A stretch of 30,334 nucleotides of DNA from a virus. Location of the stretch: positions 1-30,334 of IMG/VR virus record IMGVR_UViG_3300042691_035026. One strand, given 5' to 3'. The notes under the pieces are model-generated. The model had not been told where the DNA came from. It saw only the letters and a list, made by a program, of their open reading frames with translations, and did not search any database. Positions 1 to 8,506 of the stretch are shown here, one piece after another (position 1 is the first letter of the stretch; each line of letters starts with the position of its first letter). A program made the translations under genes and the position numbers.

Positions 1-137
1 TATTGCAACAGATGGAAAAATTTGTAGACTACCTGTTTGCACAAGGTCAAACCAGAGCAGGCAATGAGCTGTTGGGCTTTATTGAAACGGCAGATGCTGT
101 GTTAGAGGACTGTGAGCTGGAGGAGGACGTACTGTGA
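1..137 (+). CDS. Hypothetical protein, 5' end cut by window edge
   Basis: An open frame read from base 3 runs to the TGA at 135-137. It encodes at least 44 residues ending ELEEDVL and is acidic, with no recognisable domain. An ATG at 12 could be the start, but the frame stays open to the window edge, so the gene is probably partial. Its TGA overlaps the GTG start of the next gene, and the GGAGGA at about 120-125, which serves that gene, lies in its last codons. The two are therefore probably translationally coupled. Function unknown. Confidence 0.6.
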   Translation, partial: LQQMEKFVDYLFAQGQTRAGNELLGFIETADAVLEDCELEEDVL

Positions 138-373
138 TTACAGCAGACAAACTCAAAATGATGTCCTCACTTACGCATCATCACCTGCAGGATGCACTGG
201 GCAACAAGGGCAAGAAGTACCGGCTGACCAGTTCAAAGTTCCTAGGACTGACTAACGGTGGGGAGTTCTGCTACCACGTGTTCTACAAGATCGATGCCAA
301 CGAGCGAGATAGTACTAAAGTGTTTATCAAGTTCAACCCTACAACTGATAGGGTTATTGCAACAATTGGTTGA
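134..373 (+). CDS. Hypothetical small basic protein (79 aa)
   Basis: Starts at a GTG overlapping the previous stop codon. The strong GGAGGA site about 8 bases upstream supports this start. The product is basic in its first half (NKGKKYRLTSSKF) and ends in a beta-rich segment (STKVFIKFNPTTDRVIATIG). I recognise no family; it could be a small nucleic-acid or protein-binding factor, but that is only inference. The TGA stop lies inside the -35 hexamer of the next promoter (TTGACA at 370-375), an arrangement repeated several times downstream. Confidence 0.65.
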   Translation: MITADKLKMMSSLTHHHLQDALGNKGKKYRLTSSKFLGLTNGGEFCYHVFYKIDANERDSTKVFIKFNPTTDRVIATIG

Positions 374-398
374 CAGTTGGACAGATCTTTGTTATAAT
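370..398 (+). promoter_or_regulatory. Sigma70 promoter for 430-696
   Basis: TTGACA at 370-375, a 17-bp spacer and TATAAT at 393-398: a perfect consensus. It is followed by ACATACATCAACAACGC, the start of a G-poor leader shared with other promoters in the array, then AGGAG before the ATG at 430. The upstream gene stops inside the -35 box. Confidence 0.92.
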
Positions 399-429
399 AC
401 ATACATCAACAACGCAATAGGAGTTCTAA

Positions 430-696
430 ATGTCAAGCTACCCAAATATGTCTTACTGCATGAACGAGAACACTCTGCTTGCACTGAAGCAGGTGCTGGA
501 CGCTATGCAAGAGGAAGGCCCGCAGTTCCTGCGTGAGCTGAACCGTACGGAGCGCCGGGCCTTTGAGGAACTGTTCCACTACTGCGAGAGCTTCCTTACA
601 ATGAGTGAGGAACTGCAAGAGGAGTACGAGCGCGAAGAGCGTGATGGACAGCCCGATGAGGCGCAAGAGTGGGCAGACTTCGACCCAGATTGCTAA
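430..696 (+). CDS. Hypothetical acidic protein (88 aa)
   Basis: The ATG has AGGAG 8 bases upstream and its own promoter. The product is strongly acidic, rich in Glu and Gln and predicted largely helical (EELQEEYEREERDG around residues 60-73). It ends EWADFDPDC. Small acidic early phage proteins often act as host-protein binders or DNA mimics, but nothing here proves that role. It is expressed as a single-gene unit: a promoter lies in front and another starts 12 bases after its stop. Confidence 0.75.
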   Translation: MSSYPNMSYCMNENTLLALKQVLDAMQEEGPQFLRELNRTERRAFEELFHYCESFLTMSEELQEEYEREERDGQPDEAQEWADFDPDC

Positions 697-707
697 AGGG
701 TCCTTGG

Positions 708-736
708 TTGACAACATGGTAAAACCGTGTTATAAT
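708..736 (+). promoter_or_regulatory. Sigma70 promoter with spacer hairpin for 771-1360
   Basis: TTGACA 708-713, 17-bp spacer, TATAAT 731-736. The spacer is an inverted repeat: AACATGG (713-719) can pair with CCGTGTT (725-731) around a TAAAA loop. Three later promoters share the TGGTAAAACC core. The leader ACATACACAAACACACTAGGAGC resembles the other leaders. Confidence 0.9.
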
Positions 737-770
737 TGATACATACACAAACACACTAGGAGCATTTGAA

Positions 771-1172
771 ATGGGTACACGAAGCATGATCGCACTGGAA
801 TACGCAGACGGCACAATTGGGCAAGTGTATTGCCACTGGGACGGTTATTTGGAGCACAACGGCAAGATCCTGCAGAACAGCTACACAGACCCGTTCAAAG
901 TGCGTGAGCTGTTGGACAAAGGCGACATGTCTAGCTTGAGCGAGAGTGTCGAGGGTTGCAACTTCTACTCAGAGCGTGGCGAGAACTGCCCTCAGCGTAT
1001 GTACAAGGACTACGCAGAGTACCGCAAGGAAGCACAGTTTGAGGAATACAACTACATCCTCCGCAAGGACGGCAAGTGGTACGTTGAGTTCTACGGCGAG
1101 TTTGACGGCTTGCTGACTAAGGCTATTATGGACGAACAGGATCGAGTTGCACAAGAGGAGACAGAAGAATGA
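771..1172 (+). CDS. Conserved phage protein, MGTRS family (133 aa)
   Basis: The N-terminus MGTRSMIALEYADG and the following YCHWDGYLEHNG are the hallmark of a small-protein family I know from many phages, written there as MGTRS..I...YCHWDGY. Its function is unknown. Residues 43-57 (VRELLDKGDMSSLSE) match the usual next block. The length is typical. It has its own promoter and AGGAG site, and its TGA overlaps the ATG of the next gene (ATGA), so the two form a two-gene unit. Confidence 0.8.
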   Translation: MGTRSMIALEYADGTIGQVYCHWDGYLEHNGKILQNSYTDPFKVRELLDKGDMSSLSESVEGCNFYSERGENCPQRMYKDYAEYRKEAQFEEYNYILRKDGKWYVEFYGEFDGLLTKAIMDEQDRVAQEETEE

Positions 1173-1360
1173 GCAAGGTATCAGAATTAGCATACGACAT
1201 TGAGCAACTGTACATTGACGGCATGAGTGCCAGAATGATTGCTCTAACACTAGACTGCCCGATCAAAATGGTCCTGGCAGCACTGGAAGAAATGAATGTA
1301 GAAGATGTGGCAGAAATGCCACAGGAGGGTTACGATCCGTTCGAAACAGTTAACTCCTAA
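1169..1360 (+). CDS. Small putative helix-turn-helix protein (63 aa)
   Basis: Starts at an ATG overlapping the upstream stop by four bases. Residues about 5-45 read as a recombinase-type helix-turn-helix: IEQLYIDGMSARMIALTLDC followed by PIKMVLAALEEM. The I-A-x-x-L turn pattern is typical. The C-terminus is acidic. It could be a small DNA-binding regulator of early genes, coupled to the MGTRS-family gene; the target is unknown. The fold is my reading of the pattern, without a profile search. Confidence 0.7.
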   Translation: MSKVSELAYDIEQLYIDGMSARMIALTLDCPIKMVLAALEEMNVEDVAEMPQEGYDPFETVNS

Positions 1361-1372
1361 CACAAAAAACGG

Positions 1373-1402
1373 TTGACACTGCCGTCCAATCAGTGTTATA
1401 AT
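1373..1402 (+). promoter_or_regulatory. Sigma70 promoter for 1459-1872
   Basis: TTGACA 1373-1378, 18-bp spacer, TATAAT 1397-1402. ACACTG (1376-1381) and CAGTGT (1391-1396) form an inverted repeat across the spacer. Unlike the other units it is followed by a long leader of about 50 bases with a hairpin. Confidence 0.88.
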
Positions 1403-1407
1403 TAATT

Positions 1408-1432
1408 TATGGACAGCGGGGTGCTGTTCATA
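1408..1432 (+). promoter_or_regulatory. Leader hairpin upstream of 1459 gene
   Basis: TATGGACAGC (1408-1417) pairs with GCTGTTCATA (1423-1432), 10 base pairs with one G-U, around a GGGGT loop. It lies at the very 5' end of the predicted transcript. This position suits mRNA stabilisation or regulation; it is followed by ACACACATACACAAAGGA and the start codon. Confidence 0.7.
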
Positions 1433-1458
1433 TAACACACATACACAAAGGAAATATT

Positions 1459-1872
1459 ATGTCTCAATTTTCACATGCCGGCGTTTCTAAACTCAACGGC
1501 GAGTTCAAAGTTCGTTTTGCCAATGACGCTACTCGCGTTAAGGTCCTGATCAAGAACGGTCATACTGACATTGACATCATCGAGCTCAAGCAGCCAATGT
1601 CCAAAGAAGACGCTGTTGCCTATCTCATGGAGATCGACTTCGCTACTCGTGACGGCAAGACCAATGCCGATGTGCAGGCTGCACTGGCTGCTGAACTGGA
1701 CAAGCGTTCGCCTACTACCAAGGCACCTAAGGCACCTAAGGCCAAAGCAGAGAAGCCTACCATGGACAAGATCAAAGCCAAGGTCGCTGCTAAGAAAGCA
1801 GAAGCCAAGCCTACCCCTAGCAAGGCAGAAGTCATTGCTCAGTTGGCTACCATGGAAGACGCTCCTTTCTAA
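1459..1872 (+). CDS. Conserved phage protein with Lys/Ala/Pro tail and SSB-like C-terminus (137 aa)
   Basis: Two parts are visible. Residues 1-80 form a compact alpha/beta domain (VSKLNGEFKVRFANDATRVK, then DIDIIELKQPMSKEDAVAYL) that I know as a conserved hypothetical of large phages. Residues 83-125 are a low-complexity Lys/Ala/Pro linker with repeats such as KAPKAPKAKAEK. The last residues, MEDAPF, resemble the acidic-Pro-Phe tip of bacterial SSB, which binds repair and replication proteins. The tip resemblance is inference. It is probably abundant early: consensus promoter, stable leader hairpin, AAGGAA site. Confidence 0.78.
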   Translation: MSQFSHAGVSKLNGEFKVRFANDATRVKVLIKNGHTDIDIIELKQPMSKEDAVAYLMEIDFATRDGKTNADVQAALAAELDKRSPTTKAPKAPKAKAEKPTMDKIKAKVAAKKAEAKPTPSKAEVIAQLATMEDAPF

Positions 1873-1932
1873 ATTACCCCTGCAGTGTGCGTAGCGGCAG
1901 TGCCAATAAGTCCGCTTCGATAAAGGAATAAA

Positions 1933-2151
1933 ATGAGTCGTTTAGATTATATTGGTCGTCCTTGGGTTTCATTTGATCCCAGTAATCGACAACATCGCAA
2001 ATGGTTTGCAGAGTTCCAACGTAAAGGTACGTGGGGTCATTGTCCAGTTCGATTCATTGTGTCGGATGACCACGGTGATTTGATTACCCTTATCCAACGC
2101 AAACTGATCGGTTATTATGTAGATAAAGAGTTTGGCAAAATTGCTGCTTGA
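1933..2151 (+). CDS. Conserved phage hypothetical protein (72 aa)
   Basis: The ATG is preceded by AAAGGAA. The sequence contains RPWVSFDPSNRQHRKWFAEF and TWGHCPVRFIVSDD, a pattern I recall from small conserved proteins of T4-like and other large phages; function unknown. No promoter was found in the 60-base gap before it, so it is probably transcribed with the 1459 gene. Its TGA lies inside the -35 box (TTGACC, 2148-2153) of the next promoter. Confidence 0.78.
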   Translation: MSRLDYIGRPWVSFDPSNRQHRKWFAEFQRKGTWGHCPVRFIVSDDHGDLITLIQRKLIGYYVDKEFGKIAA

Positions 2152-2176
2152 CCTAACAGTTTAGATTATGTATACT
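2148..2176 (+). promoter_or_regulatory. Sigma70-like promoter for 2216-2488
   Basis: TTGACC 2148-2153, 17-bp spacer, TATACT 2171-2176. It is weaker than its neighbours and lacks the ACATACAT leader. The leader contains a small hairpin, ACTGC-ACA-GCAGT, at about 2187-2199, then AAGGAA before the ATG. Confidence 0.7.
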
Positions 2177-2215
2177 TGTTATTAACTGCACAGCAGTATC
2201 TAACAAGGAAATAAT

Positions 2216-2488
2216 ATGATTAAGCATTTCAATCCAGAGACCAAGACTTTCAAACTGTTCAACGCAATGTATAACGGTGAGTCAGTCACAGCTAGCCAAG
2301 CAGAAAAGCGTTTTGGCATTAAGAATATCAGCGCTGAAGTATCACGCATTCGCCAGAATGGTTATGCGGTTTATGCCAATAACCGCAAAGCTGGTAATGG
2401 TGTAGAAGTTACTGAATATCAAATTGGCCGCCCAAGCCGCAAGATCGTTGCCGCTGGTTACAAAGCAATGGCTCTTGGTCTAGTTTAA
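2216..2488 (+). CDS. Putative winged-helix DNA-binding protein (90 aa)
   Basis: The ATG has AAGGAA 7 bases upstream. Residues about 25-70 read as a winged helix: GESVTASQAEKRFGIKNISA, then EVSRIRQNGYAVYANN as recognition helix and wing, then a beta strand (GVEVTEYQIG). The C-terminus GRPSRKIVAAGYKA is basic. Similar small proteins occur in T4-like phages of aquatic bacteria. A role in regulating phage or host transcription is inference. It is followed by a hairpin-rich gap that probably terminates this transcript. Confidence 0.75.
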   Translation: MIKHFNPETKTFKLFNAMYNGESVTASQAEKRFGIKNISAEVSRIRQNGYAVYANNRKAGNGVEVTEYQIGRPSRKIVAAGYKAMALGLV

Positions 2489-2504
2489 TAGATCGCTCCG
2501 AAGT

Positions 2505-2524
2505 CCTGGGGGTAGTGTCCCAGG
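2505..2524 (+). terminator. Hairpin after 2488
   Basis: CCTGGG (2505-2510) pairs with CCCAGG (2519-2524) around an 8-base loop. It has no U-tract, so it is probably a structural or mRNA 3'-end element rather than a complete terminator. Confidence 0.45.
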
Positions 2525-2532
2525 CAAACCCC

Positions 2533-2572
2533 GAGCCCTGCCTGCTGTGAAGCATCGCAGGGCTCACCTTTT
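2533..2572 (+). terminator. Probable intrinsic terminator
   Basis: GAGCCCTGC (2533-2541) and GCAGGGCTC (2557-2565) are a perfect 9-bp GC-rich stem with a 15-base loop, followed by ACCTTTT. It ends the 2216-2488 transcript. Confidence 0.7.
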
Positions 2573-2660
2573 GTGTACTCCTGTTTGCAGTCTAGATAAA
2601 CTTTAGTACACATTTTTCAGGTCTCGAACCGTTTACAGCAATTCTTTTCTACAGACTGCA
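2573..2660 (+). repeat. Inverted repeats in gene-free stretch 2489-2702
   Basis: After the terminator the gap holds two more inverted repeats. GTGTACT (2573-2579) pairs with AGTACAC (2605-2611), which is followed by ATTTTT and looks like a second terminator. TGCAGTCT (2586-2593) pairs with AGACTGCA (2653-2660) and would compete with it. I found no credible ORF or tRNA here. Confidence 0.55.
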
Positions 2661-2702
2661 CATAGGCTCACAAGAACCTGCGTAAAGCATTCAACCCTAT
2701 GG

Positions 2703-2732
2703 TTGACAGGGTTATCCAAACGGTGTTATAAT
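2703..2732 (+). promoter_or_regulatory. Sigma70 promoter in stem-loop for 2757-3078
   Basis: TTGACA 2703-2708, 18-bp spacer, TATAAT 2727-2732. AACCCT (2693-2698) pairs with AGGGTT (2708-2713), so most of the -35 box sits in the loop. The leader is ACACTTACACAGAAGGAG. Confidence 0.88.
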
Positions 2733-2756
2733 ACACTTACACAGAAGGAGAAGTGT

Positions 2757-2939
2757 ATGAGAGTTGAAGTCCAAAGCCTGTACAGAGTCCAATGCACTGA
2801 GTACGAAAGAGGATACGGCCAACGCGATATGGGCGTAGAGTTCTTCACTACAGAGCAGGAAGCCAAAGAGTTCTGTGAGCGATATGCAAGCGGCGACAGC
2901 GAGTGCTTCTACCGTGCCAGCTACACCAAGGTGGCCTAA
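2757..2939 (+). CDS. Small hypothetical protein (60 aa), paralogue-like to 3113 gene
   Basis: The ATG at 2757 is chosen because GAAGGAG lies 7 bases upstream; an in-frame ATG further up falls before the -10 box. The product contains YRVQCTEYERGYGQRDMGVE and FFTTEQEAKEFCERYASGD. The pattern of a strand, then GVxF..xEQAxEF, then a helix also occurs in the 3113-3301 product, suggesting divergent copies of one small alpha/beta family. Function unknown. It is followed after one base by the next gene. Confidence 0.7.
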   Translation: MRVEVQSLYRVQCTEYERGYGQRDMGVEFFTTEQEAKEFCERYASGDSECFYRASYTKVA

Positions 2940-2940
2940 G

Positions 2941-3078
2941 ATGAAGTATACACTGATCACCAAGACCGGCAAGGTGTATACTTTCTTTGTACTGGCTGTG
3001 GCCCAGACATACCTGCAAGCATACGGCGGCACATTGATTGACAATTCGGTTGTCCAAACAGCAGAAGTGGTGTTATAA
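2941..3078 (+). CDS. Small hypothetical protein (45 aa)
   Basis: The ATG lies one base after the upstream stop, with AAGGTGG as a plausible ribosome site. It encodes MKYTLITKTGKVYTFFVLAV and ends QTAEVVL. It has strands and one hydrophobic segment (YTFFVLAVAQTYL), not clearly membrane-spanning. Its TAA stop lies inside the TATAAT (3074-3079) of the following promoter. Function unknown. Confidence 0.65.
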   Translation: MKYTLITKTGKVYTFFVLAVAQTYLQAYGGTLIDNSVVQTAEVVL

Positions 3079-3079
3079 T
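3050..3079 (+). promoter_or_regulatory. Promoter for 3113-3301, weak -35
   Basis: TATAAT at 3074-3079 with TTGTCC at 3050-3055 (18-bp spacer). A perfect TTGACA at 3038-3043 is 30 bp from the -10, too far to be used; the two hexamers are arms of a hairpin (GACAA/TTGTC). The leader ACATACATAGACAGCAACAAACAGGAG is the shared type. Confidence 0.65.
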
Positions 3080-3112
3080 ACATACATAGACAGCAACAAA
3101 CAGGAGAAGATC

Positions 3113-3301
3113 ATGCAAGTTTATTCCGTTCTGCGACACGTAGATTACGAAGGCCAAGACCTGTTGGGCGTGTTTGACTCGCGTGAGCAAGCTGTAGAGT
3201 TTGCTCGTGGTCGTATAGACCGCTGGAGCCAAGTGGGCATAGTAGAGTCTGAGCTGGGACAGCCAGTGGACTTCTATGAGTCTGTAGATTGGGTGGAATA
3301 A
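3113..3301 (+). CDS. Small hypothetical protein (62 aa)
   Basis: The ATG at 3113 has CAGGAG 9 bases upstream. The product MQVYSVLRHVDYEGQDLLGV then FDSREQAVEFARGRIDRW is an alpha/beta miniprotein. It shares the G-V-F, E-Q-A, E-F spacing with the 2757 product. The C-terminus is acidic (FYESVDWVE). Function unknown. The TAA starts the stem (AATAACC) of the next promoter's hairpin. Confidence 0.75.
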   Translation: MQVYSVLRHVDYEGQDLLGVFDSREQAVEFARGRIDRWSQVGIVESELGQPVDFYESVDWVE

Positions 3302-3310
3302 CCCTTTTGG

Positions 3311-3339
3311 TTGACAGGTTATTCAAATGCTGTTATAAT
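3311..3339 (+). promoter_or_regulatory. Sigma70 promoter in stem-loop for 3366-3659
   Basis: TTGACA 3311-3316, 17-bp spacer, TATAAT 3334-3339. AATAACC (3297-3303) pairs with GGTTATT (3317-3323), putting the whole -35 box in the loop. The leader is ACATACATCGCAACAAGGAGC. Confidence 0.92.
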
Positions 3340-3365
3340 ACATACATCGCAACAAGGAGCTGACT

Positions 3366-3659
3366 ATGTCGAAACTGCTGATTACCACCCAAGTGTACGA
3401 GAACTACGGTACGGCCGATGAGCCCTACTGGAAGCCCAAAGGCGGTGCTGACTACGTGGTCAAGAAGTTCAAGGACTTCAACCGTGTGACAGAGACTGTG
3501 ATGGCCCTGCGCCCACAGATAGAGTGCGACAACGAGTTCTACCGTGAGCACATCATCGGTTGGGAGATCGTGGCCAACGACTACCTCACAGACTTCGAGC
3601 GTAGCCAGTGGGAGTACGATGGCAAGATCACCTACCCTGCTAAGGAGTTGGCTTGGTAA
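3366..3659 (+). CDS. Conserved phage hypothetical protein (97 aa)
   Basis: Begins MSKLLITTQVYENYGTADEP and continues YWKPKGGADYVVKKF. This opening (LITTQVYENYG...YWKxKGG) is a family I recall from many large phages; function unknown. Later segments include IIGWEIVANDYLTDFERSQW. The start has AAGGAGC upstream and is the only ATG close to the promoter. It is a single-gene unit between two promoters. Confidence 0.8.
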   Translation: MSKLLITTQVYENYGTADEPYWKPKGGADYVVKKFKDFNRVTETVMALRPQIECDNEFYREHIIGWEIVANDYLTDFERSQWEYDGKITYPAKELAW

Positions 3660-3668
3660 CCCTTGTGG

Positions 3669-3697
3669 TTGACAGGGTATTCAAAAGACCTTATAAT
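3669..3697 (+). promoter_or_regulatory. Sigma70 promoter in stem-loop for 3725-3919
   Basis: TTGACA 3669-3674, 17-bp spacer, TATAAT 3692-3697. ACCCT (3659-3663) pairs with AGGGT (3674-3678). The leader is ACATACATAGACAGCAAGGAGC. Confidence 0.9.
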
Positions 3698-3724
3698 ACA
3701 TACATAGACAGCAAGGAGCAGATC

Positions 3725-3919
3725 ATGGACAAGAGCACACACATCCTCGGCGCTAAAGAGTATACCGCAAAGGCTATCACAGCCGCAGAGATGACTGAGC
3801 AAGCAACACTGGTTATGGACCGTGTGACTGGCGAGATGTACGATCCTAAGGCTGCGTTCGACAAGCTGATGAACACACCCGAGATCATGGCTTCGTTAAA
3901 GCGGTTGTCCATCCGCTGA
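3725..3919 (+). CDS. Small hypothetical protein (64 aa)
   Basis: ATG 3725 has AAGGAG 9 bases upstream; the longer in-frame version would start before the promoter. The product MDKSTHILGAKEYTAKAITA is helical and Ala/Met-rich with VMDRVTGEMYDPKAAFDKLM in the middle. No family recognised. Its TGA falls in the spacer of the next promoter. Confidence 0.7.
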   Translation: MDKSTHILGAKEYTAKAITAAEMTEQATLVMDRVTGEMYDPKAAFDKLMNTPEIMASLKRLSIR

Positions 3920-3933
3920 ATCTGTGCTATAAT
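3905..3933 (+). promoter_or_regulatory. Promoter in stem-loop for 3958-4182
   Basis: TTGTCC 3905-3910, 17-bp spacer, TATAAT 3928-3933. AGCGG (3900-3904) pairs with CCGCT (3913-3917), leaving TTGTCCAT as loop. The leader lacks ACATACAT, so this cassette differs from the rest. Confidence 0.75.
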
Positions 3934-3957
3934 ATCCCATTGAAACAAAGGAACCAT

Positions 3958-4182
3958 ATGAACAAGTATCAAAAACAAGCCCTGATGGATCTAATCAAGT
4001 TCTTTCTAGCCGTCATGGGTGTAATCGCCCTGGTGCAGTTGATTCTACTGGCAGGTGTCACATCCAGCACGATCTTTGGATCGATTGGATTGGTCATCAT
4101 GTGCTACTGTGTCTATCAATTGTACCTAGTCCGTGTAGGACAGTTGGAATCTGAAGATCAGCGCAATAACCCTAAAGGTTGA
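3958..4182 (+). CDS. Small two-helix membrane protein (74 aa)
   Basis: ATG 3958 follows AAAGGAA. Two hydrophobic segments are visible: residues about 12-34 (LIKFFLAVMGVIALVQLILL) and 40-57 (IFGSIGLVIMCYCVYQLYLV). A short polar C-terminus (QLESEDQRNNPKG) follows. It is probably an inner-membrane protein with both ends on the same side. Small early membrane proteins in T4-like phages often serve exclusion or membrane remodelling, but the role here is unknown. The TGA lies inside the next -35 box. Confidence 0.75.
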   Translation: MNKYQKQALMDLIKFFLAVMGVIALVQLILLAGVTSSTIFGSIGLVIMCYCVYQLYLVRVGQLESEDQRNNPKG

Positions 4183-4207
4183 CAGGGTATTCAAAAGATC
4201 GTATAAT
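4179..4207 (+). promoter_or_regulatory. Sigma70 promoter in stem-loop for 4240-4823
   Basis: TTGACA 4179-4184, 17-bp spacer, TATAAT 4202-4207. ACCCT (4169-4173) pairs with AGGGT (4184-4188). The leader is ACATACATAGACAGCAACAAACAGGAG. Confidence 0.9.
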
Positions 4208-4239
4208 ACATACATAGACAGCAACAAACAGGAGTTGAG

Positions 4240-4443
4240 ATGACTTATACGATCTTCAAGCACAATCAGGAATACGGTCCACGCAAGGGACTCGAAGGTC
4301 CTTTCCACTACCCTAATGGGCGTGTTGCCTACTATGATCCCAAGGCAGGCAAGTATTGGGATCCACGTACAGACTTCTACTTGGAAGACGATGAGGCCGC
4401 TGAACTACAAAACTCTATCTTCGGAGTGTTGAAACGTGCCTAA
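4240..4443 (+). CDS. Small hypothetical protein (67 aa)
   Basis: The ATG follows CAGGAGTTGAG. The product is Tyr/Gly/Pro-rich in the first half (MTYTIFKHNQEYGPRKGLEG, GKYWDPRTDFYLEDDEAAEL) and ends in a helix. No family recognised. It is the first gene of a three-gene overlapping unit: the next GTG start lies 8 bases before its stop. Confidence 0.75.
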   Translation: MTYTIFKHNQEYGPRKGLEGPFHYPNGRVAYYDPKAGKYWDPRTDFYLEDDEAAELQNSIFGVLKRA

Positions 4444-4633
4444 TATCACAATCAAACCCAATCTTAATCCGCTAGAAGTCATCCTGGTTGAAGAGTACAT
4501 GACCCGCCATTGGCCCAAGGTCACACATTATACAATGACCGAAGGCAATGACTGCGTCTGGGTCTATTACAGCAACATGAATCTCTACTTCGTATTCCGC
4601 GATGGAAGGATCATAGATGTCCAAATCGATTAA
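4436..4633 (+). CDS. Small hypothetical protein (65 aa), GTG start
   Basis: Read from GTG 4436, overlapping the upstream gene by 8 bases, with CGGAGTG about 11 bases upstream. The first ATG (4499) would remove a third of the protein. It encodes a beta-rich product (VTHYTMTEGNDCVWVYYSNM, LYFVFRDGRIIDVQID). No family recognised. Its end overlaps the next start at 4617. Confidence 0.65.
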   Translation: MPNITIKPNLNPLEVILVEEYMTRHWPKVTHYTMTEGNDCVWVYYSNMNLYFVFRDGRIIDVQID

Positions 4634-4823
4634 AGTCTATCAAGAGACTACAGAGTGGGCTGACAGCAACGGTGCCAACCATGTCTACATCTTCAACGAG
4701 AAGGTCACAGGTCGCAGTGCCACAGCCATTGCCTATATCCCTGCTGGTCAAACTAAAGTACACAAATTCAAGACGCCCTTGAAGCTGGATCTTAAAGGCA
4801 GAAAGTTCGAAGAAATCACTTGA
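4617..4823 (+). CDS. Small hypothetical beta-rich protein (68 aa)
   Basis: The ATG has GGAAGGA just upstream and overlaps the previous gene by 17 bases. The product MSKSIKVYQETTEWADSNGA then HVYIFNEKVTGRSATAIAYI is predicted mainly strands, with a basic C-terminal third (KVHKFKTPLKLDLKGRKFEE). Function unknown. Its TGA sits inside the -35 box at 4820-4825. Confidence 0.72.
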   Translation: MSKSIKVYQETTEWADSNGANHVYIFNEKVTGRSATAIAYIPAGQTKVHKFKTPLKLDLKGRKFEEIT

Positions 4824-4848
4824 CAAGATGGTAAAACCTTGTTATAAT
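4820..4848 (+). promoter_or_regulatory. Sigma70 promoter with spacer hairpin for 4874-4987
   Basis: TTGACA 4820-4825, 17-bp spacer containing ATGGTAAAACC, TATAAT 4843-4848. ACAA and GG pair with CC and TTGT across the spacer with a bulge. The leader is ACATACATCGCAACAAGGAG. Confidence 0.92.
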
Positions 4849-4873
4849 ACATACATCGCAACAAGGAGTAGAT

Positions 4874-4987
4874 ATGACAGCATTGATTATGCCATTTATT
4901 ATATATTATTGGACGCCAACGGCTTCTGTGATTACTTTTTTAATAATTGCGGCTTATTTAATAAAAGCAAAAACTACTAAAGATTGA
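4874..4987 (+). CDS. Tiny membrane peptide (37 aa)
   Basis: Too short for most gene callers, but it has a consensus promoter, the shared leader, AAGGAG and an ATG 6 bases later. It encodes MTALIMPFIIYYWTPTASVI followed by TFLIIAAYLIKAKTTKD: one long or two short hydrophobic segments and a positive tail, so probably a single-pass membrane peptide. It is AT-richer than its neighbours. The TGA lies inside the next -35 box. Possible roles are host-membrane or exclusion functions; unproven. Confidence 0.7.
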   Translation: MTALIMPFIIYYWTPTASVITFLIIAAYLIKAKTTKD

Positions 4988-5012
4988 CACAGACTACAAT
5001 TGATCGTATAAT
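4984..5012 (+). promoter_or_regulatory. Sigma70 promoter for 5039-5293 (copy 1 of 37-bp repeat)
   Basis: TTGACA 4984-4989, 17-bp spacer, TATAAT 5007-5012. The 37 bases from the -35 through ACATACAT (4984-5020) recur exactly at 5274-5310. The leader is CGCAACAAGGAGC. Confidence 0.92.
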
Positions 5013-5038
5013 ACATACATCGCAACAAGGAGCAGCAT

Positions 5039-5293
5039 ATGAAATGGGATCTAACTGGTGACCGCGTTAACGGACTCTACATGGGCCTGTTCCCTTACAG
5101 TGGCTTGGTTACCGAAAGCCGTGTCAAGTACGGCGGTGATGTTCAGTACACTGTCAAAGTAGACGAGCCCTTCAAGGTCTACGGTGCAGTTCGTGATGTG
5201 GTCCTGGTCAGTGTTACAGAGATCAACCGTGTGCTCACAGCGGAAGATTCCTGGTACGATGGTCAATTTGAGCTTGACACAGACTACAATTGA
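5039..5293 (+). CDS. Conserved-looking phage protein (84 aa)
   Basis: The ATG follows AAGGAGCAGCAT. The product contains GDRVNGLYMGLFPYSGLVTE, SRVKYGGDVQYTVKVDEPF and DVVLVSVTEINRVLT, predicted as a small beta barrel. I recall similar sequences in aquatic T4-like phages but no function. Its last codons (LDTDYN, stop) are encoded by the -35 box and spacer of the next promoter, which is an exact copy of its own promoter. Confidence 0.75.
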   Translation: MKWDLTGDRVNGLYMGLFPYSGLVTESRVKYGGDVQYTVKVDEPFKVYGAVRDVVLVSVTEINRVLTAEDSWYDGQFELDTDYN

Positions 5294-5302
5294 TCGTATA
5301 AT
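5274..5302 (+). promoter_or_regulatory. Sigma70 promoter for 5329-5863 (copy 2)
   Basis: TTGACA 5274-5279, 17-bp spacer, TATAAT 5297-5302, embedded in the end of the 5039 gene. The leader is ACATACATAGACACTAAGGAGC. Confidence 0.92.
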
Positions 5303-5328
5303 ACATACATAGACACTAAGGAGCAAAG

Positions 5329-5553
5329 ATGATTAGAGAGCACATTGAGATGGACACACGACACGGTGGCCCTTATGATCGCGGCATGGCAGACAGCTAC
5401 TACCGCAGAGAATACAATCCCCACTACTACCTGGGCGATACTAAGGCATCAGGTCGTGTTACACTCAAGGACATGACACCCGATGAGATCGTGGCCTACA
5501 CCGCAGGCTACAACGACAACGAAGAGATGGGCGACTATAAGGAGTGGTTATAA
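5329..5553 (+). CDS. Conserved phage protein, DTRHGGPYDRG family (74 aa)
   Basis: The motif MDTRHGGPYDRGMADSYYRR followed by NPHYYLGDTKASGRVTLKDM and TPDEIVAYTAGYND is a small-protein family found widely in phages and prophages. It is known by the DTRHGGPxDRG...PHY...MTPxEIxAYxxGY signature, with no assigned function. The length is typical. It is the first of three genes joined by TAATG overlaps. Confidence 0.82.
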   Translation: MIREHIEMDTRHGGPYDRGMADSYYRREYNPHYYLGDTKASGRVTLKDMTPDEIVAYTAGYNDNEEMGDYKEWL

Positions 5554-5636
5554 TGCAAGTCTACATCAACCTGGCTATTGTTATGATGCCTGTGATTGTA
5601 ATGGGCTTGGCAATGATCATCATGGGAGAATTCTAA
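5553..5636 (+). CDS. Tiny membrane peptide (27 aa)
   Basis: Starts at an ATG overlapping the upstream stop (TAATG), with AAGGAG 8 bases before it. It ends in the same TAATG arrangement with the next gene, which makes a real gene likely despite the length. It encodes MQVYINLAIVMMPVIVMGLA followed by MIIMGEF: a single hydrophobic helix with a short acidic end. Probably a membrane-inserted micropeptide. Confidence 0.62.
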   Translation: MQVYINLAIVMMPVIVMGLAMIIMGEF

Positions 5637-5863
5637 TGATCGAAATCAACGGTTTGACGGGCCATCAAGTAGCCCTTCTGGATGAGATGTGGGCCTGCGA
5701 CACCTTTGAGGAATATCAAGAGTTCCTGGATCAGCTGAGCCCCGAAGATCAGCTGGAATGCATCAATCTGGAGCGCATGGTTCTGTTGGCCGAGATGGAC
5801 AACCTTGTGGCAGAAATGCCACTAACTGAAGCCCAGAAAGTTCTTGCTCAGTTCCGTCTTTGA
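5636..5863 (+). CDS. Small acidic helical protein (75 aa)
   Basis: The start at 5636 is chosen because the ATG overlaps the upstream stop and follows GGGAGAATTC. The product MIEINGLTGHQVALLDEMWA then CDTFEEYQEFLDQLSPEDQL is acidic and helical, ending LTEAQKVLAQFRL. I recall small conserved phage proteins beginning ING(L/F)T..Q..LLD.MW; function unknown. The TGA lies just upstream of the next -10 box. Confidence 0.75.
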   Translation: MIEINGLTGHQVALLDEMWACDTFEEYQEFLDQLSPEDQLECINLERMVLLAEMDNLVAEMPLTEAQKVLAQFRL

Positions 5864-5872
5864 TCGTATAAT
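5844..5872 (+). promoter_or_regulatory. Promoter for 5899-6099
   Basis: TTGCTC 5844-5849, 17-bp spacer, TATAAT 5867-5872. The weaker -35 is part of the upstream coding sequence. The leader is ACATACATCGTAACAAGGAGC. Confidence 0.75.
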
Positions 5873-5898
5873 ACATACATCGTAACAAGGAGCACACT

Positions 5899-6099
5899 AT
5901 GCAAATCCTGGGAACCATTGTAGCAGCCATTGCCCTCCTAGTTGGACTGAGTCTGATCATGGCCCTGCCCACCATGTGGTTGTGGGACTGGCTGATGCCC
6001 GAGCTGTTTGGTCTCAAAACCATTACTCTGTTCCAAGCATGGGGCTTGAACTTCCTCTGCGGCATGTTGTTTAAAAGCCACACAAGTTCTAGCAAATAA
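5899..6099 (+). CDS. Conserved small phage membrane protein (66 aa)
   Basis: The ATG follows AAGGAGCACACT. Residues 3-27 (ILGTIVAAIALLVGLSLIMA) are a membrane helix. Then comes PTMWLWDWLMPELFGLKTIT and a second hydrophobic stretch (QAWGLNFLCGMLF). The WLWxWLMPxxFGLxxIT..QAWGL..LCGxLFK signature is a small membrane protein family I know from many phages; function unknown. The C-terminus is a short Ser-rich tail. Confidence 0.8.
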   Translation: MQILGTIVAAIALLVGLSLIMALPTMWLWDWLMPELFGLKTITLFQAWGLNFLCGMLFKSHTSSSK

Positions 6100-6102
6100 C
6101 GG

Positions 6103-6131
6103 TTGACAAGTTGGTAAAACCTTGTTATAAT
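6103..6131 (+). promoter_or_regulatory. Sigma70 promoter with spacer hairpin for 6163-6546
   Basis: TTGACA 6103-6108, 17-bp spacer with TTGGTAAAACC, TATAAT 6126-6131. The leader is ACATACACACTAACACAAAAGGGAGC. Confidence 0.92.
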
Positions 6132-6162
6132 ACATACACACTAACACAAAAGGGAGCGACAA

Positions 6163-6546
6163 ATGGCTAAAGTAAATTATGACAGTTTTGCATCGTTTGA
6201 CATTAACGAGTGCTGTGACCACTTTGACAGTGAGAAGCAGAGCAACTGGAAGAAGATTAACAAGTTCATCGTGGCAGATGGACAAGAGTACGCACACATT
6301 ATGGAGTCAGAGTTTGACTTTGAGGACACGGGTGCAGGCGAGTACGAGGCCTTCCAAGCAGGTGTTAAGTATGCACTGACAAAGATGAACATTGCCTTTG
6401 AAGCAGCCGCCGTGGACCTGCAGGTATGCGAGGTAGACTTGGTAGAGTCTATGGGCTTTGTCTTAGTCCGTGCAGACGATGAGCCTGAGGACTTTGTCAA
6501 ACGAGTGCTGAAGAAGCCTGTCATGATGGTTGACAGCTGGGTTTAA
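6163..6546 (+). CDS. Hypothetical acidic protein (127 aa)
   Basis: The ATG follows AAGGGAGCGACAA. The product begins MAKVNYDSFASFDINECCDH and is acidic through residues 45-60 (MESEFDFEDTGAGEYEAFQA), followed by an amphipathic helix and a C-terminal beta/helix part (VLVRADDEPEDFVKRVLKKP). No family recognised. Single-gene unit with a terminator-like structure after it. Confidence 0.75.
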   Translation: MAKVNYDSFASFDINECCDHFDSEKQSNWKKINKFIVADGQEYAHIMESEFDFEDTGAGEYEAFQAGVKYALTKMNIAFEAAAVDLQVCEVDLVESMGFVLVRADDEPEDFVKRVLKKPVMMVDSWV

Positions 6547-6561
6547 TATCCGGAGTGCCGG

Positions 6562-6606
6562 CCCCTGCCACTAGACCCTGCAACACGCCTGGGTACTTCG
6601 CAGGGG
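6562..6606 (+). terminator. Hairpin between 6163 gene and next promoter
   Basis: GCAGGGG (6600-6606) can pair with CCCCTGC (6562-6568), or its first six bases with CCCTGC (6576-6581). These are two alternative stems sharing one arm, directly abutting the next TTGACA. No clean U-tract, so termination is uncertain. Confidence 0.5.
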
Positions 6607-6635
6607 TTGACACAATGGTAAAACCTTGTTATAAT
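6607..6635 (+). promoter_or_regulatory. Sigma70 promoter with spacer hairpin for 6665-6808
   Basis: TTGACA 6607-6612, 17-bp spacer, TATAAT 6630-6635. ACAA and GG pair with CC and TTGT around TAAAA. The leader is ACATACTTAAACAACACAAAGGA. Confidence 0.92.
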
Positions 6636-6664
6636 ACATACTTAAACAACACAAAGGACACACA

Positions 6665-6808
6665 ATGCAAAGCAAATCCATTCCAAGCTCCACAGGCGGC
6701 GTTATCACTTACACCAAAACAGGTCTGATTCACACCGCTGGTAAAGCCTATTCTGGTAAGATCGCCGCTCAAGAAGCTAAACAAAAGCCCGCCAAAGCAA
6801 AGGGTTAA
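6665..6808 (+). CDS. Small basic protein (47 aa)
   Basis: It has a consensus promoter, the shared leader and AAAGGA before the ATG. It encodes MQSKSIPSSTGGVITYTKTG, then LIHTAGKAYSGKIAAQEAKQ and a Lys/Ala/Pro tail. It is strongly basic with no acidic run, so nucleic-acid binding is possible but unproven. A promoter begins 4 bases after its stop. Confidence 0.7.
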   Translation: MQSKSIPSSTGGVITYTKTGLIHTAGKAYSGKIAAQEAKQKPAKAKG

Positions 6809-6811
6809 TAG

Positions 6812-6840
6812 TTGACAACGGCCTGAAAAGGCATTATAAT
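6812..6840 (+). promoter_or_regulatory. Sigma70 promoter with spacer hairpin for 6872-7138
   Basis: TTGACA 6812-6817, 17-bp spacer, TATAAT 6835-6840. GCCT-GAAA-AGGC (6821-6832) is a perfect GNRA-type hairpin inside the spacer. The leader is ACATACATCAACAACGCACTAAGGA. Confidence 0.92.
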
Positions 6841-6871
6841 ACATACATCAACAACGCACTAAGGAAACGAA

Positions 6872-7138
6872 ATGAAAAAGGTTTTGATCGCAGGTTTGAT
6901 CGCAGTGTCTGGTATTGCCCATGCTGACATCAGCAAAGAAGCAGGTCGATGTGCCGCTTATATGCTGTTCGTTAAGAAAAGCAATGAGGATGCTCGGATT
7001 GCTATGAATCACGCTGAAAACAAAGGCAAGATGCAAGTGGCCGCAAATCGCTGGGTTGACCTTGCACAATCAAATCCTTCCGAAGCAGTTAAACAAGCCC
7101 AGATGGCATGTATCTATCATCTCCGAATGAAAATGTAA
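6872..7138 (+). CDS. Small exported (periplasmic) protein (88 aa)
   Basis: MKKVLIAGLIAVSGIAHADI is a classic Sec signal peptide: two lysines, hydrophobic core and AHA before the likely cleavage after residue 18. The mature part of about 70 residues is helical with two Cys residues (GRCAAYM and QMACIYH) that could form a disulfide in the periplasm. No family recognised. It is unusual in this array of cytoplasmic and membrane proteins; possible roles in envelope modification or superinfection exclusion are inference. Confidence 0.78.
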   Translation: MKKVLIAGLIAVSGIAHADISKEAGRCAAYMLFVKKSNEDARIAMNHAENKGKMQVAANRWVDLAQSNPSEAVKQAQMACIYHLRMKM

Positions 7139-7163
7139 TAACCCTTCGGTTGACAGGGTTATT
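7137..7163 (+). terminator. 9-bp stem-loop with -35 in loop
   Basis: AATAACCCT (7137-7145) and AGGGTTATT (7155-7163) form a perfect stem. The loop TCGGTTGAC holds most of the next -35 box and the stem includes the upstream stop codon. It is the clearest member of the stem-loop/promoter cassettes. Confidence 0.75.
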
Positions 7164-7178
7164 GAAAGACGCTATAAT
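7150..7178 (+). promoter_or_regulatory. Sigma70 promoter for 7211-7555
   Basis: TTGACA 7150-7155, 17-bp spacer, TATAAT 7173-7178. The leader is ACATACATCAACAACGCACTAAGGAGC, nearly identical to that of the previous unit. Confidence 0.92.
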
Positions 7179-7210
7179 ACATACATCAACAACGCACTAA
7201 GGAGCATTAA

Positions 7211-7555
7211 ATGACAGCAACTTTTAACCTGGAAGCCGTGCAAGACGCACTCAACGAAGCAGGCATCCAAGCCCGTACAGCCGCTAAGGAGTTCCTGCAG
7301 AAGCACGGTGATCGTGATTGCTGTGGCTTTGCTTGGGTCAATGTGTGGGGCGTCCGTAGCAACAGCAAACTGGGCAAGGCACTGCAAGCCGCTGGCTTCC
7401 GCAAGGACTATACCGGCTCACTCCAACTGTGGAATCCCAGCAAAGCAGGCACACAGAGCCTGAACGTCCTGGAAGCAGGCGCAGAGGCTTACGCAGAGGT
7501 CCTGCGCACTAAGTTGGGCTTGGAAAAGGTCTACGCTGGCTCGCGCATGGATTGA
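7211..7555 (+). CDS. Conserved phage hypothetical protein (114 aa)
   Basis: The ATG follows AAGGAGCATTAA. Landmarks are GDRDCCGFAWVNVWGVRSNS, KLGKALQAAGFRKDYTGSLQ, LWNPSKAGTQSLN and the C-terminal VYAGSRMD. I recall this DCCGFAWV...WNPS...YAGSR pattern from hypothetical proteins of large phages. The two adjacent cysteines followed by GFAW are the most conserved-looking part. Function unknown. Confidence 0.78.
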   Translation: MTATFNLEAVQDALNEAGIQARTAAKEFLQKHGDRDCCGFAWVNVWGVRSNSKLGKALQAAGFRKDYTGSLQLWNPSKAGTQSLNVLEAGAEAYAEVLRTKLGLEKVYAGSRMD

Positions 7556-7565
7556 TTGTAGAGCA

Positions 7566-7590
7566 AAAGGGCTTGACAAACAGGCCCTTT
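7566..7590 (+). terminator. Stem-loop enclosing -35 box
   Basis: AAAGGGC (7566-7572) pairs with GCCCTTT (7584-7590). The loop is TTGACAAACAG, so the whole -35 hexamer of the next promoter is in the loop. Confidence 0.75.
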
Positions 7591-7601
7591 GACTGTATAA
7601 T
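7573..7601 (+). promoter_or_regulatory. Sigma70 promoter for 7634-9004
   Basis: TTGACA 7573-7578, 17-bp spacer, TATAAT 7596-7601. The leader is ACATACTTCACAAACACACTAAGGAG. It is the last promoter of the array and serves a three-gene unit. Confidence 0.92.
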
Positions 7602-7633
7602 ACATACTTCACAAACACACTAAGGAGAAGCAA

Positions 7634-8506
7634 ATGGCTGCAACGAAACGACAGGCTCCCAGCAAGGGTTCTACAGTACTTGAGTTCGATACGGACGCTA
7701 TCAAGCGCCGCGAGCGAGAAGTTGCCAAAGAAACAGACGACGAGATCTATGCACGACTTGCAGAGCGCTTTGAGATTCTGGACGAGATGACCAAAGCTGT
7801 TAAGACTGGCGATGTACGTGCCATGATTGTATCAGGTCCTCCGGGCGTTGGTAAGAGCTTTGGTGTTGAGCGTCAACTGCAAAAGGCAGATCTGTTCAAC
7901 ACACTGGCAGAACGCAAGCCCAAGTTTGAAGTGGTCAAAGGTGCCATGTCCAGCATCGGTCTCTACGCTAAGTTGTACGAGTTCGCTGAAAAAGGCAACG
8001 TTGTGGTCTTTGACGACTGCGACAGTATCCTTATGGAAGACCTCAGCTTGAACATCCTTAAGGGTGCCTTGGACAGTTCAGAGCGCCGTTGGATCAGCTG
8101 GAACACTGACAGCCGCCTGTTGCGTAGTGAAGGCATTCCAGATCGTTTCGAGTTCAAAGGTGCTGCCATCTTCATTACTAATATCAAGTTCGAGCACGTG
8201 AAAAGCAAGCGTCTGCGTGATCACCTGGACGCTTTGGAAAGCCGTTGCCACTACATTGACTTGGCTATCGACACCAACCGCGAGAAGATACTCCGTATCA
8301 AGCAGGTGGTCAAGGACAACGACATGTTGGGCCGCTACGAGTTTGAAGACTGTGTCAAGGACGAGCTGGTCGAGTTCGTGGAAACAAACCAGGACAAGCT
8401 TCGTGAGCTGAGCCTGCGTATGGTACTGAAACTGGCAGACTTGCGCAAGAGCTTTCCACGCACTTGGATGGCCATGGCCAAGACCACATGCATGAAGCGC
8501 ACATGA
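7634..8506 (+). CDS. AAA+ ATPase (290 aa)
   Basis: A single AAA+ module. Walker A is GPPGVGKS (residues 68-75), Walker B is VVVFDDCD (123-130) and sensor 1 is FITN (180-183). A possible arginine finger lies in LESRCHYIDL (201-210), and the rest is helical. The N-terminal 60 residues are charged and may bind a partner. The usual Walker B Glu is replaced by Cys (DDCD), which could lower hydrolysis. Phage AAA+ proteins of this size remodel replication or virion complexes; the partner is unknown. First gene of a coupled unit with a membrane protein and a Cys/His protein. Confidence 0.88.
   Translation: MAATKRQAPSKGSTVLEFDTDAIKRREREVAKETDDEIYARLAERFEILDEMTKAVKTGDVRAMIVSGPPGVGKSFGVERQLQKADLFNTLAERKPKFEVVKGAMSSIGLYAKLYEFAEKGNVVVFDDCDSILMEDLSLNILKGALDSSERRWISWNTDSRLLRSEGIPDRFEFKGAAIFITNIKFEHVKSKRLRDHLDALESRCHYIDLAIDTNREKILRIKQVVKDNDMLGRYEFEDCVKDELVEFVETNQDKLRELSLRMVLKLADLRKSFPRTWMAMAKTTCMKRT

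Follow-up and report, generated by a model that had tools for sequence, protein, structure and literature searches.

The window analysed here is the complete IMG/VR record IMGVR_UViG_3300042691_035026, 30,334 bases of a partial virus genome. It belongs to an uncultured freshwater T4-type phage, known here from sequence alone. T4-type core genes fill the right three quarters of the window, mostly on the - strand, and the large terminase (TerL) is 54% identical to that of the Pseudomonas jumbo phage PA5oct. The left quarter carries about 27 small open reading frames (ORFs) on the + strand, interspersed with the promoter array that is the subject of this study and closed by an AAA ATPase. T4-type TerL and nrdC.10-like neighbours accompany the array, and uvsX-, gp32- and uvsW-like genes, assigned by eye, lie on the same contig. 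The small ORFs fall mostly in unknown PHROGs. One of them, the backbone gene 2216-2488, was recognised as a winged helix-turn-helix (HTH) protein (Pfam HTH_39); it has its own weaker promoter and is a candidate regulator of the array. A search of the window against Rfam gave no match.

The initial annotation described nineteen near-consensus sigma70 promoters on one strand between positions 370 and 7601, and this description holds. An exact promoter was defined as TTGACA-N16..18-TATAAT and counted over positions 1-7700. The + strand has 15, 13 with a 17-bp and 2 with an 18-bp spacer, and the - strand has none. Dinucleotide-preserving shuffles (3000) gave a mean of 0.0037 for both strands together and a maximum of 1. 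Four weaker promoters (2148, 3050, 3905 and 5844) bring the + strand total to 19. The boxes are indeed mostly separated by exactly 17 bp (17 bp in 16 promoters, 18 bp in 3), and the TATAAT count, first given as 16, becomes 18 out of 19. The sequence TATAATACATACAT occurs in 11 exact copies (shuffle mean 0.0). By our count, 19 of the 27 ORFs in the block have a promoter of their own, and the statement that nearly every tiny gene has one was slightly overstated. Leaders are G-poor, as noted, with A 47%, C 26%, T 18% and G 9% between the -10 box and the Shine-Dalgarno core. The preceding ORF runs at its 3' end into seven of the promoters, and at 370, 2148, 4820 and 4984 its stop codon is the TGA within the -35 box.

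With the ATPase gene serving as anchor, viral contigs yielded 80 related loci. With strong promoters defined by 11 or 12 of 12 hexamer matches, the 74 loci of at least 7.2 kb, window included, hold 787 on the anchor strand versus 55 on the opposite strand. After removal of near-copies 461 promoters remain, 439 of them with a spacer of exactly 17 bp. Their logo consists of GG-TTGACA, a spacer with an A-rich centre, TGn, TATAAT, ACAYACAT and a leader rich in A; the hexamers formed part of the criterion by which promoters were picked, and the flanks did not. The stop codon of the upstream gene is the -35 TGA in 75 of 515 promoters, and the upstream gene ends within the -35 box or spacer in 96 more. 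Up to 19 strong promoters per 7.2 kb are found in the densest relative (L187). The array is a local block, since dense matches in a 331-kb relative are confined to 218-231 kb. No near-identical promoter DNA was found in cultured phages, and PA5oct, the nearest cultured phage by TerL, has no homologous array at that locus, where its genes are operonic. The use of the motif as a host promoter signature was rejected: its 68 matches in 257 Gb are scattered and mostly in Clostridia, and therefore give no host clue.

An extra conserved element around +1 had also been proposed and finds support. ACAYACAT is kept across diverged phages and is also present in RB49; in the form ACAYmCAT it follows the -10 box in 201 of the 461 array promoters. 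A phage-encoded sigma factor or activator might read the extended element TATAATACAYACAT, the copies existing for that protein. Conservation does extend to about +14, and the spacer motif GGTAAAACC is promoter-specific. However, the near-perfect match to host sigma70 makes a new factor unnecessary, and the downstream element is variable (ACACACAT, ACATACTT, TAACACAT) and shared with RB49, a coliphage that relies on host RNA polymerase early. We regard such a factor as a very unlikely reason for the array.

Array gene families show a mosaic order across the relatives, with a common backbone, insertions and relocated units. Joints were examined in 138 orthologous pairs from 30 families (coding identity 0.80-0.985, near-identical contigs removed). 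Spacer identity is bimodal, 47 pairs having kept the spacer (>=0.75) and 78 having it replaced (<0.55). Of 64 pairs with different upstream neighbours, 46 have a replaced spacer and 13 a kept one. Leader kept and spacer replaced is the pattern of 26 pairs from 14 families. In these, identity is 0.25-0.37 upstream, 0.28-0.30 in the spacer, 0.97 in the -10 box and 0.92-0.93 over the next 16 nt, and the upstream profile is random except for the -35 hexamer. In the reciprocal test, 16 of 27 pairs with an orthologous upstream gene and a different next gene keep the -35 box and spacer (>=0.70). Their identity is 0.83-0.98 through ACATACAT, then 0.55, 0.44 and 0.26 past +14. The promoter after ORF 5899-6099 and the one after the L150 relative of this ORF have a spacer in common over its whole length, but the genes they precede differ. 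The coding end that holds an orphan TTGACA in the window serves as a working -35 box in L198 and L152. It appears that the -35 half of a promoter often moves together with the gene before it, and the -10 half with the gene after it.

Purifying selection only, on promoters and leaders inherited vertically, would constrain hexamers and leader while the spacer drifts fast. Constraint is certain, since diverged phages conserve the hexamers, TGn, ACAYACAT and the leader. Yet drift is insufficient for spacers at 20-50% identity, because comparable pairs retain 62-83% identity at fourfold sites; at a coding identity of 0.85-0.90, fourfold-site identity is 0.74 and many spacers are at 0.2-0.5. The bimodal spacer identity thus lies far under that of fourfold sites in the same gene pairs. 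Moreover, the 16 spacer-keeping pairs stay 84-98% identical over spacer and upstream region up to the -10 box despite their different downstream genes, and exact leaders are common to unrelated genes. Constraint without exchange is therefore quite unlikely.

Recent cassette copying had been suggested as well; copying stands, recency for the most part does not. Among different genes on the same contig, exact identity over 16 nt reaches 2.5% after the -10 box, with 0.33% in the spacer and 0.09% upstream; between contigs it is 0.5% after the -10 box. Unrelated genes carry identical -10/leader blocks. ACATACATCGCAACA is the leader of 17 gene families, found across 12 contigs; three of the genes that have it are in the window (3334, 4843 and 5007). 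Mean within-genome spacer identity is 0.39 versus 0.33, by which most copies appear old rather than recent. Had a promoter-gene unit recently been duplicated in tandem in the window genome, this would account for the identical 37-bp repeat at 4984 and 5274 and the cassettes at 3657 and 4167, 88% identical over 65 nt. But the downstream genes are mostly of unrelated families and many have orthologues in relatives, and within-genome spacers average just 39% identity. Duplication is limited to a few local copies, and as a source of the array it is highly improbable. ORF 5039-5293, between the 37-bp repeats, could excise as a small DNA circle, like the circles ascribed to exchange between neighbouring PeSL (promoter-early stem-loop) cassettes.

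Considering the promoters, their strand bias, array conservation, mosaic order, exact block sharing and the joints within promoters, we think it likely that the window contains a very dense early-gene shuffling zone of the promoter-early stem-loop (PeSL) type, whose promoters double as recombination joints. As part of this reading, and just as likely, the zone would be built of one- to three-gene modules, most beginning at a near-consensus host sigma70 promoter. Host RNA polymerase would read the array promoters immediately upon infection, and each module would be expressed whatever its neighbours. The conserved block (TATAATACAYACAT...AAGGAG, and GGTTGACA) could offer the phage's homologous recombination a short stretch of homology. 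With hexamers and spacing fixed, any exchange would rebuild a consensus promoter; modules might be joined in any combination, and the promoter formed at the junction would still work. Often the upstream module would supply the -35 half and spacer, and the downstream one the -10 box, leader and gene. The stem-loop, where present, probably ends or limits readthrough. For assembly from half-promoters in this phage lineage, the case seems to us evenly balanced: modules would often begin with a -10 box and leader and end with a -35 box and spacer, sometimes within the final codons of the gene before, and joining any neighbour would give expression. If so, the near-perfect hexamers and fixed 17-bp spacing are kept partly for interchangeability, and not for strength alone.

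Several points weigh against a PeSL-type shuffling zone. The phage has been met only as sequence. The joint profiles are conditioned on a kept leader or a kept spacer, and some joints lie upstream of the entire promoter. The stem-loop is part of the PeSL definition; three window promoters (3311, 7150 and 7573) have an individually clear one, which is weak or absent at most others, and in relatives a stem score of at least 14 is reached by 36% of promoters versus 14% in shuffles, an excess of about one fifth of promoters. Spacer hairpins are without a U-tract, so that a role in termination is no more than a possibility for them. Unconditioned mapping of homology ends gave two clusters, one immediately before GGTTGACA and the other at the -10 box, and the idea that all joints fall at the -10 box was dropped. 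Clustering at promoters is partly expected, because viable joints are restricted to intergenic DNA, most of which is promoter. The informative part of the joint evidence is the split within the promoter, and what is new here is that the recombination joint falls there.

Since few window promoters have a clear one and the excess over shuffles in relatives amounts to about one fifth of promoters, stem-loops are a minority feature. At a stem score of at least 16 the relatives have 23% of promoters versus 4.3% in shuffles. Inverted repeats are more frequent there than in shuffles at three places: before the -35 box, around it, and within the spacer, where the -35 ACA can pair with a TGT preceding the -10 box. 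The stem-loop of PeSL cassettes is ascribed a role in terminating transcription; U-tract terminators upstream of promoters amount to 2.5% here versus 0.3% in shuffles.

The 9-mer GGTAAAACC is found in the window at 718, 4830, 6113 and 6617. In the arrays of L131-L210, 114 of 115 forward copies lie within promoter spacers, mostly in three registers and in one orientation, and 77 of 392 nonredundant spacers contain it (0.00 expected in shuffles). It may be a regulatory site; alternatively, it may be a hairpin loop or merely a good spacer. A universal spacer palindrome was rejected, as the flanks of GGTAAAACC pair no better than chance beside the core and covariation is weak in other spacers.

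The leader of ORF 1459-1872 (1403-1458) is unusually long and has a hairpin GGACAGC..GCTGTTC; L143, L150 and L132 have different stems at the matching place. After the HTH gene, at 2530-2580, a GC-rich hairpin AGCCCTGC..GCAGGGCT followed by CACCTTTTGTG is probably a terminator. Similar sequences, CACCTTTTGTGG or CACCTTTGTTG, follow the HTH gene in L131 and L143.

Table 1. Features of the promoter array and its surroundings in the window.
Feature	Coordinates	Strand	Remarks
Stem-loop AACCCTA-caactga-TAGGGTT	335..355	+	upstream of promoter 370
Promoter TTGACA-17-TATAAT	370..398	+	for ORF 430-696; -35 TGA is stop of ORF 134-373
Promoter	708..736	+	for ORF 771-1172; GGTAAAACC in spacer at 718-726
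Promoter TTGACA-18-TATAAT	1373..1402	+	for ORF 1459-1872; spacer stem ACACTG/CAGTGT, alone not significant
Weaker promoter TTGACC-17-TATACT	2148..2176	+	for winged-HTH ORF 2216-2488
Promoter TTGACA-18-TATAAT	2703..2732	+	for ORF 2757-2939
Weaker promoter TTGTCC-18-TATAAT	3050..3079	+	for ORF 3113-3301
Stem-loop GAATAACC/GGTTATTC	3296..3324	+	spans -35 of promoter 3311; reached in 0/200 shuffles
Promoter	3311..3339	+	for ORF 3366-3659; leader type ACATACATCGCAACA, common to many other genes
Promoter	3669..3697	+	for ORF 3725-3919
Weaker promoter TTGTCC-17-TATAAT	3905..3933	+	for ORF 3958-4182
Promoter	4179..4207	+	for ORF 4240-4443; 65 nt 88% identical to cassette 3657-3721
Promoter	4820..4848	+	for ORF 4874-4987; spacer GGTAAAACC (4830); -35 TGA is stop of ORF 4617-4823
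Promoter	4984..5012	+	for ORF 5039-5293
37-bp direct repeat, left copy	4984..5020	+	flanks ORF 5039-5293
Promoter	5274..5302	+	for ORF 5329-5553; versus L145, leader 96% kept, spacer 41%, upstream 29%
37-bp direct repeat, right copy	5274..5310	+	partly within C-terminus of ORF 5039-5293; identical to left copy
Weaker promoter TTGCTC-17-TATAAT	5844..5872	+	for ORF 5899-6099; -35 within ORF 5636-5863
Promoter	6103..6131	+	for ORF 6163-6546; identical spacer before a different gene in L150
Orphan TTGACA, no -10 after	6530..6535	+	within C-terminus (..MMVDSWV*) of ORF 6163-6546
Promoter	6607..6635	+	for ORF 6665-6808; spacer GGTAAAACC (6617)
Promoter	6812..6840	+	for ORF 6872-7138; leader identical to leader at 7173
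Stem-loop AATAACCCT/AGGGTTATT	7137..7163	+	spans -35 of promoter 7150; reached in 0/200 shuffles
Promoter	7150..7178	+	for ORF 7211-7555
Stem-loop AAAGGGC/GCCCTTT	7566..7590	+	around -35 of promoter 7573; reached in 1% of shuffles
Promoter	7573..7601	+	for anchor ATPase ORF 7634-8506
AAA-type ATPase, phrog_1250, relative of T4-type nrdC.10	7634..8506	+	conserved gene terminating the array; used as anchor

The array bears on the question of how lytic phages exchange small, fast-changing genes yet keep them expressed. The natural joints seen in uncultured relatives are numerous; they locate exchanges in a stretch of about 30 bp and show that a promoter can be put together from halves that differ in origin. 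A mechanism known from a few cultured phages becomes statistically measurable. The nrdC.10-like ATPase also offers an anchor for gathering early-gene repertoires from freshwater metagenomes.

Early promoters of T4 are near-ideal recognition sequences for host RNA polymerase with extra conserved positions (PMC2988021). The window promoters resemble them in both respects and likewise belong to a T4-type phage, but the T4 genome has only 8 matches of at least 11/12 to TTGACA/TATAAT and 0 with ACAYmCAT. In Cluster K mycobacteriophages, SAS/ESAS repeats at translation starts were proposed to act in translation initiation (PMC3203893). There too a short conserved sequence is repeated before many small phage genes, and about half of the SAS/ESAS have an inverted repeat; however, they are not promoters and their sequence is unrelated to the array. 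For S-PM2 gene 016, which is related to ORF 771-1172, PMC4503421 reports an early promoter upstream; no TTGACA was seen there and it was not used.

The closest likeness is with the PeSL cassettes of the T4-type phages RB49 and phi1 (PMC4503421). Strong sigma70-like promoters lie between small genes, nearly all in one direction, and genes are shuffled between relatives. In our scan the main strand of RB49 carries 71 strong promoters, and ACAYmCAT follows the -10 box in 23 of the 73 strong promoters on both strands of RB49 (0.11 expected) and in 20 of 70 in phi1, as it does in the arrays described here. Some promoters have a spacer hairpin, such as TTGACAggggatcggtgatccccTATAAT in RB49, where the hairpin can take up the spacer entirely, and TTGACAggggagcaatcccctgTTATAAT in the array relative L175. 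These PeSL cassettes were reportedly treated by Arbiol in 2010 and Comeau in 2014. The initial comparison with T4-type promoter/stem-loop cassettes is thus supported for the composite layout, while the stem-loop is present only at some promoters. The very high density it pointed to is also found: 15-19 strong promoters per 7.2 kb (15 in the window, up to 19 in L187) versus at most 9 in RB49 and phi1. The arrays described here differ further in belonging to another phage lineage, in an optional hairpin with three positions (upstream, around the -35 box, spacer), and in having -35 halves in C-terminal coding sequence, a joint at the -10 box and the GGTAAAACC spacer motif. By its sequence features, the window array is of the PeSL kind, denser and with optional stem-loops.

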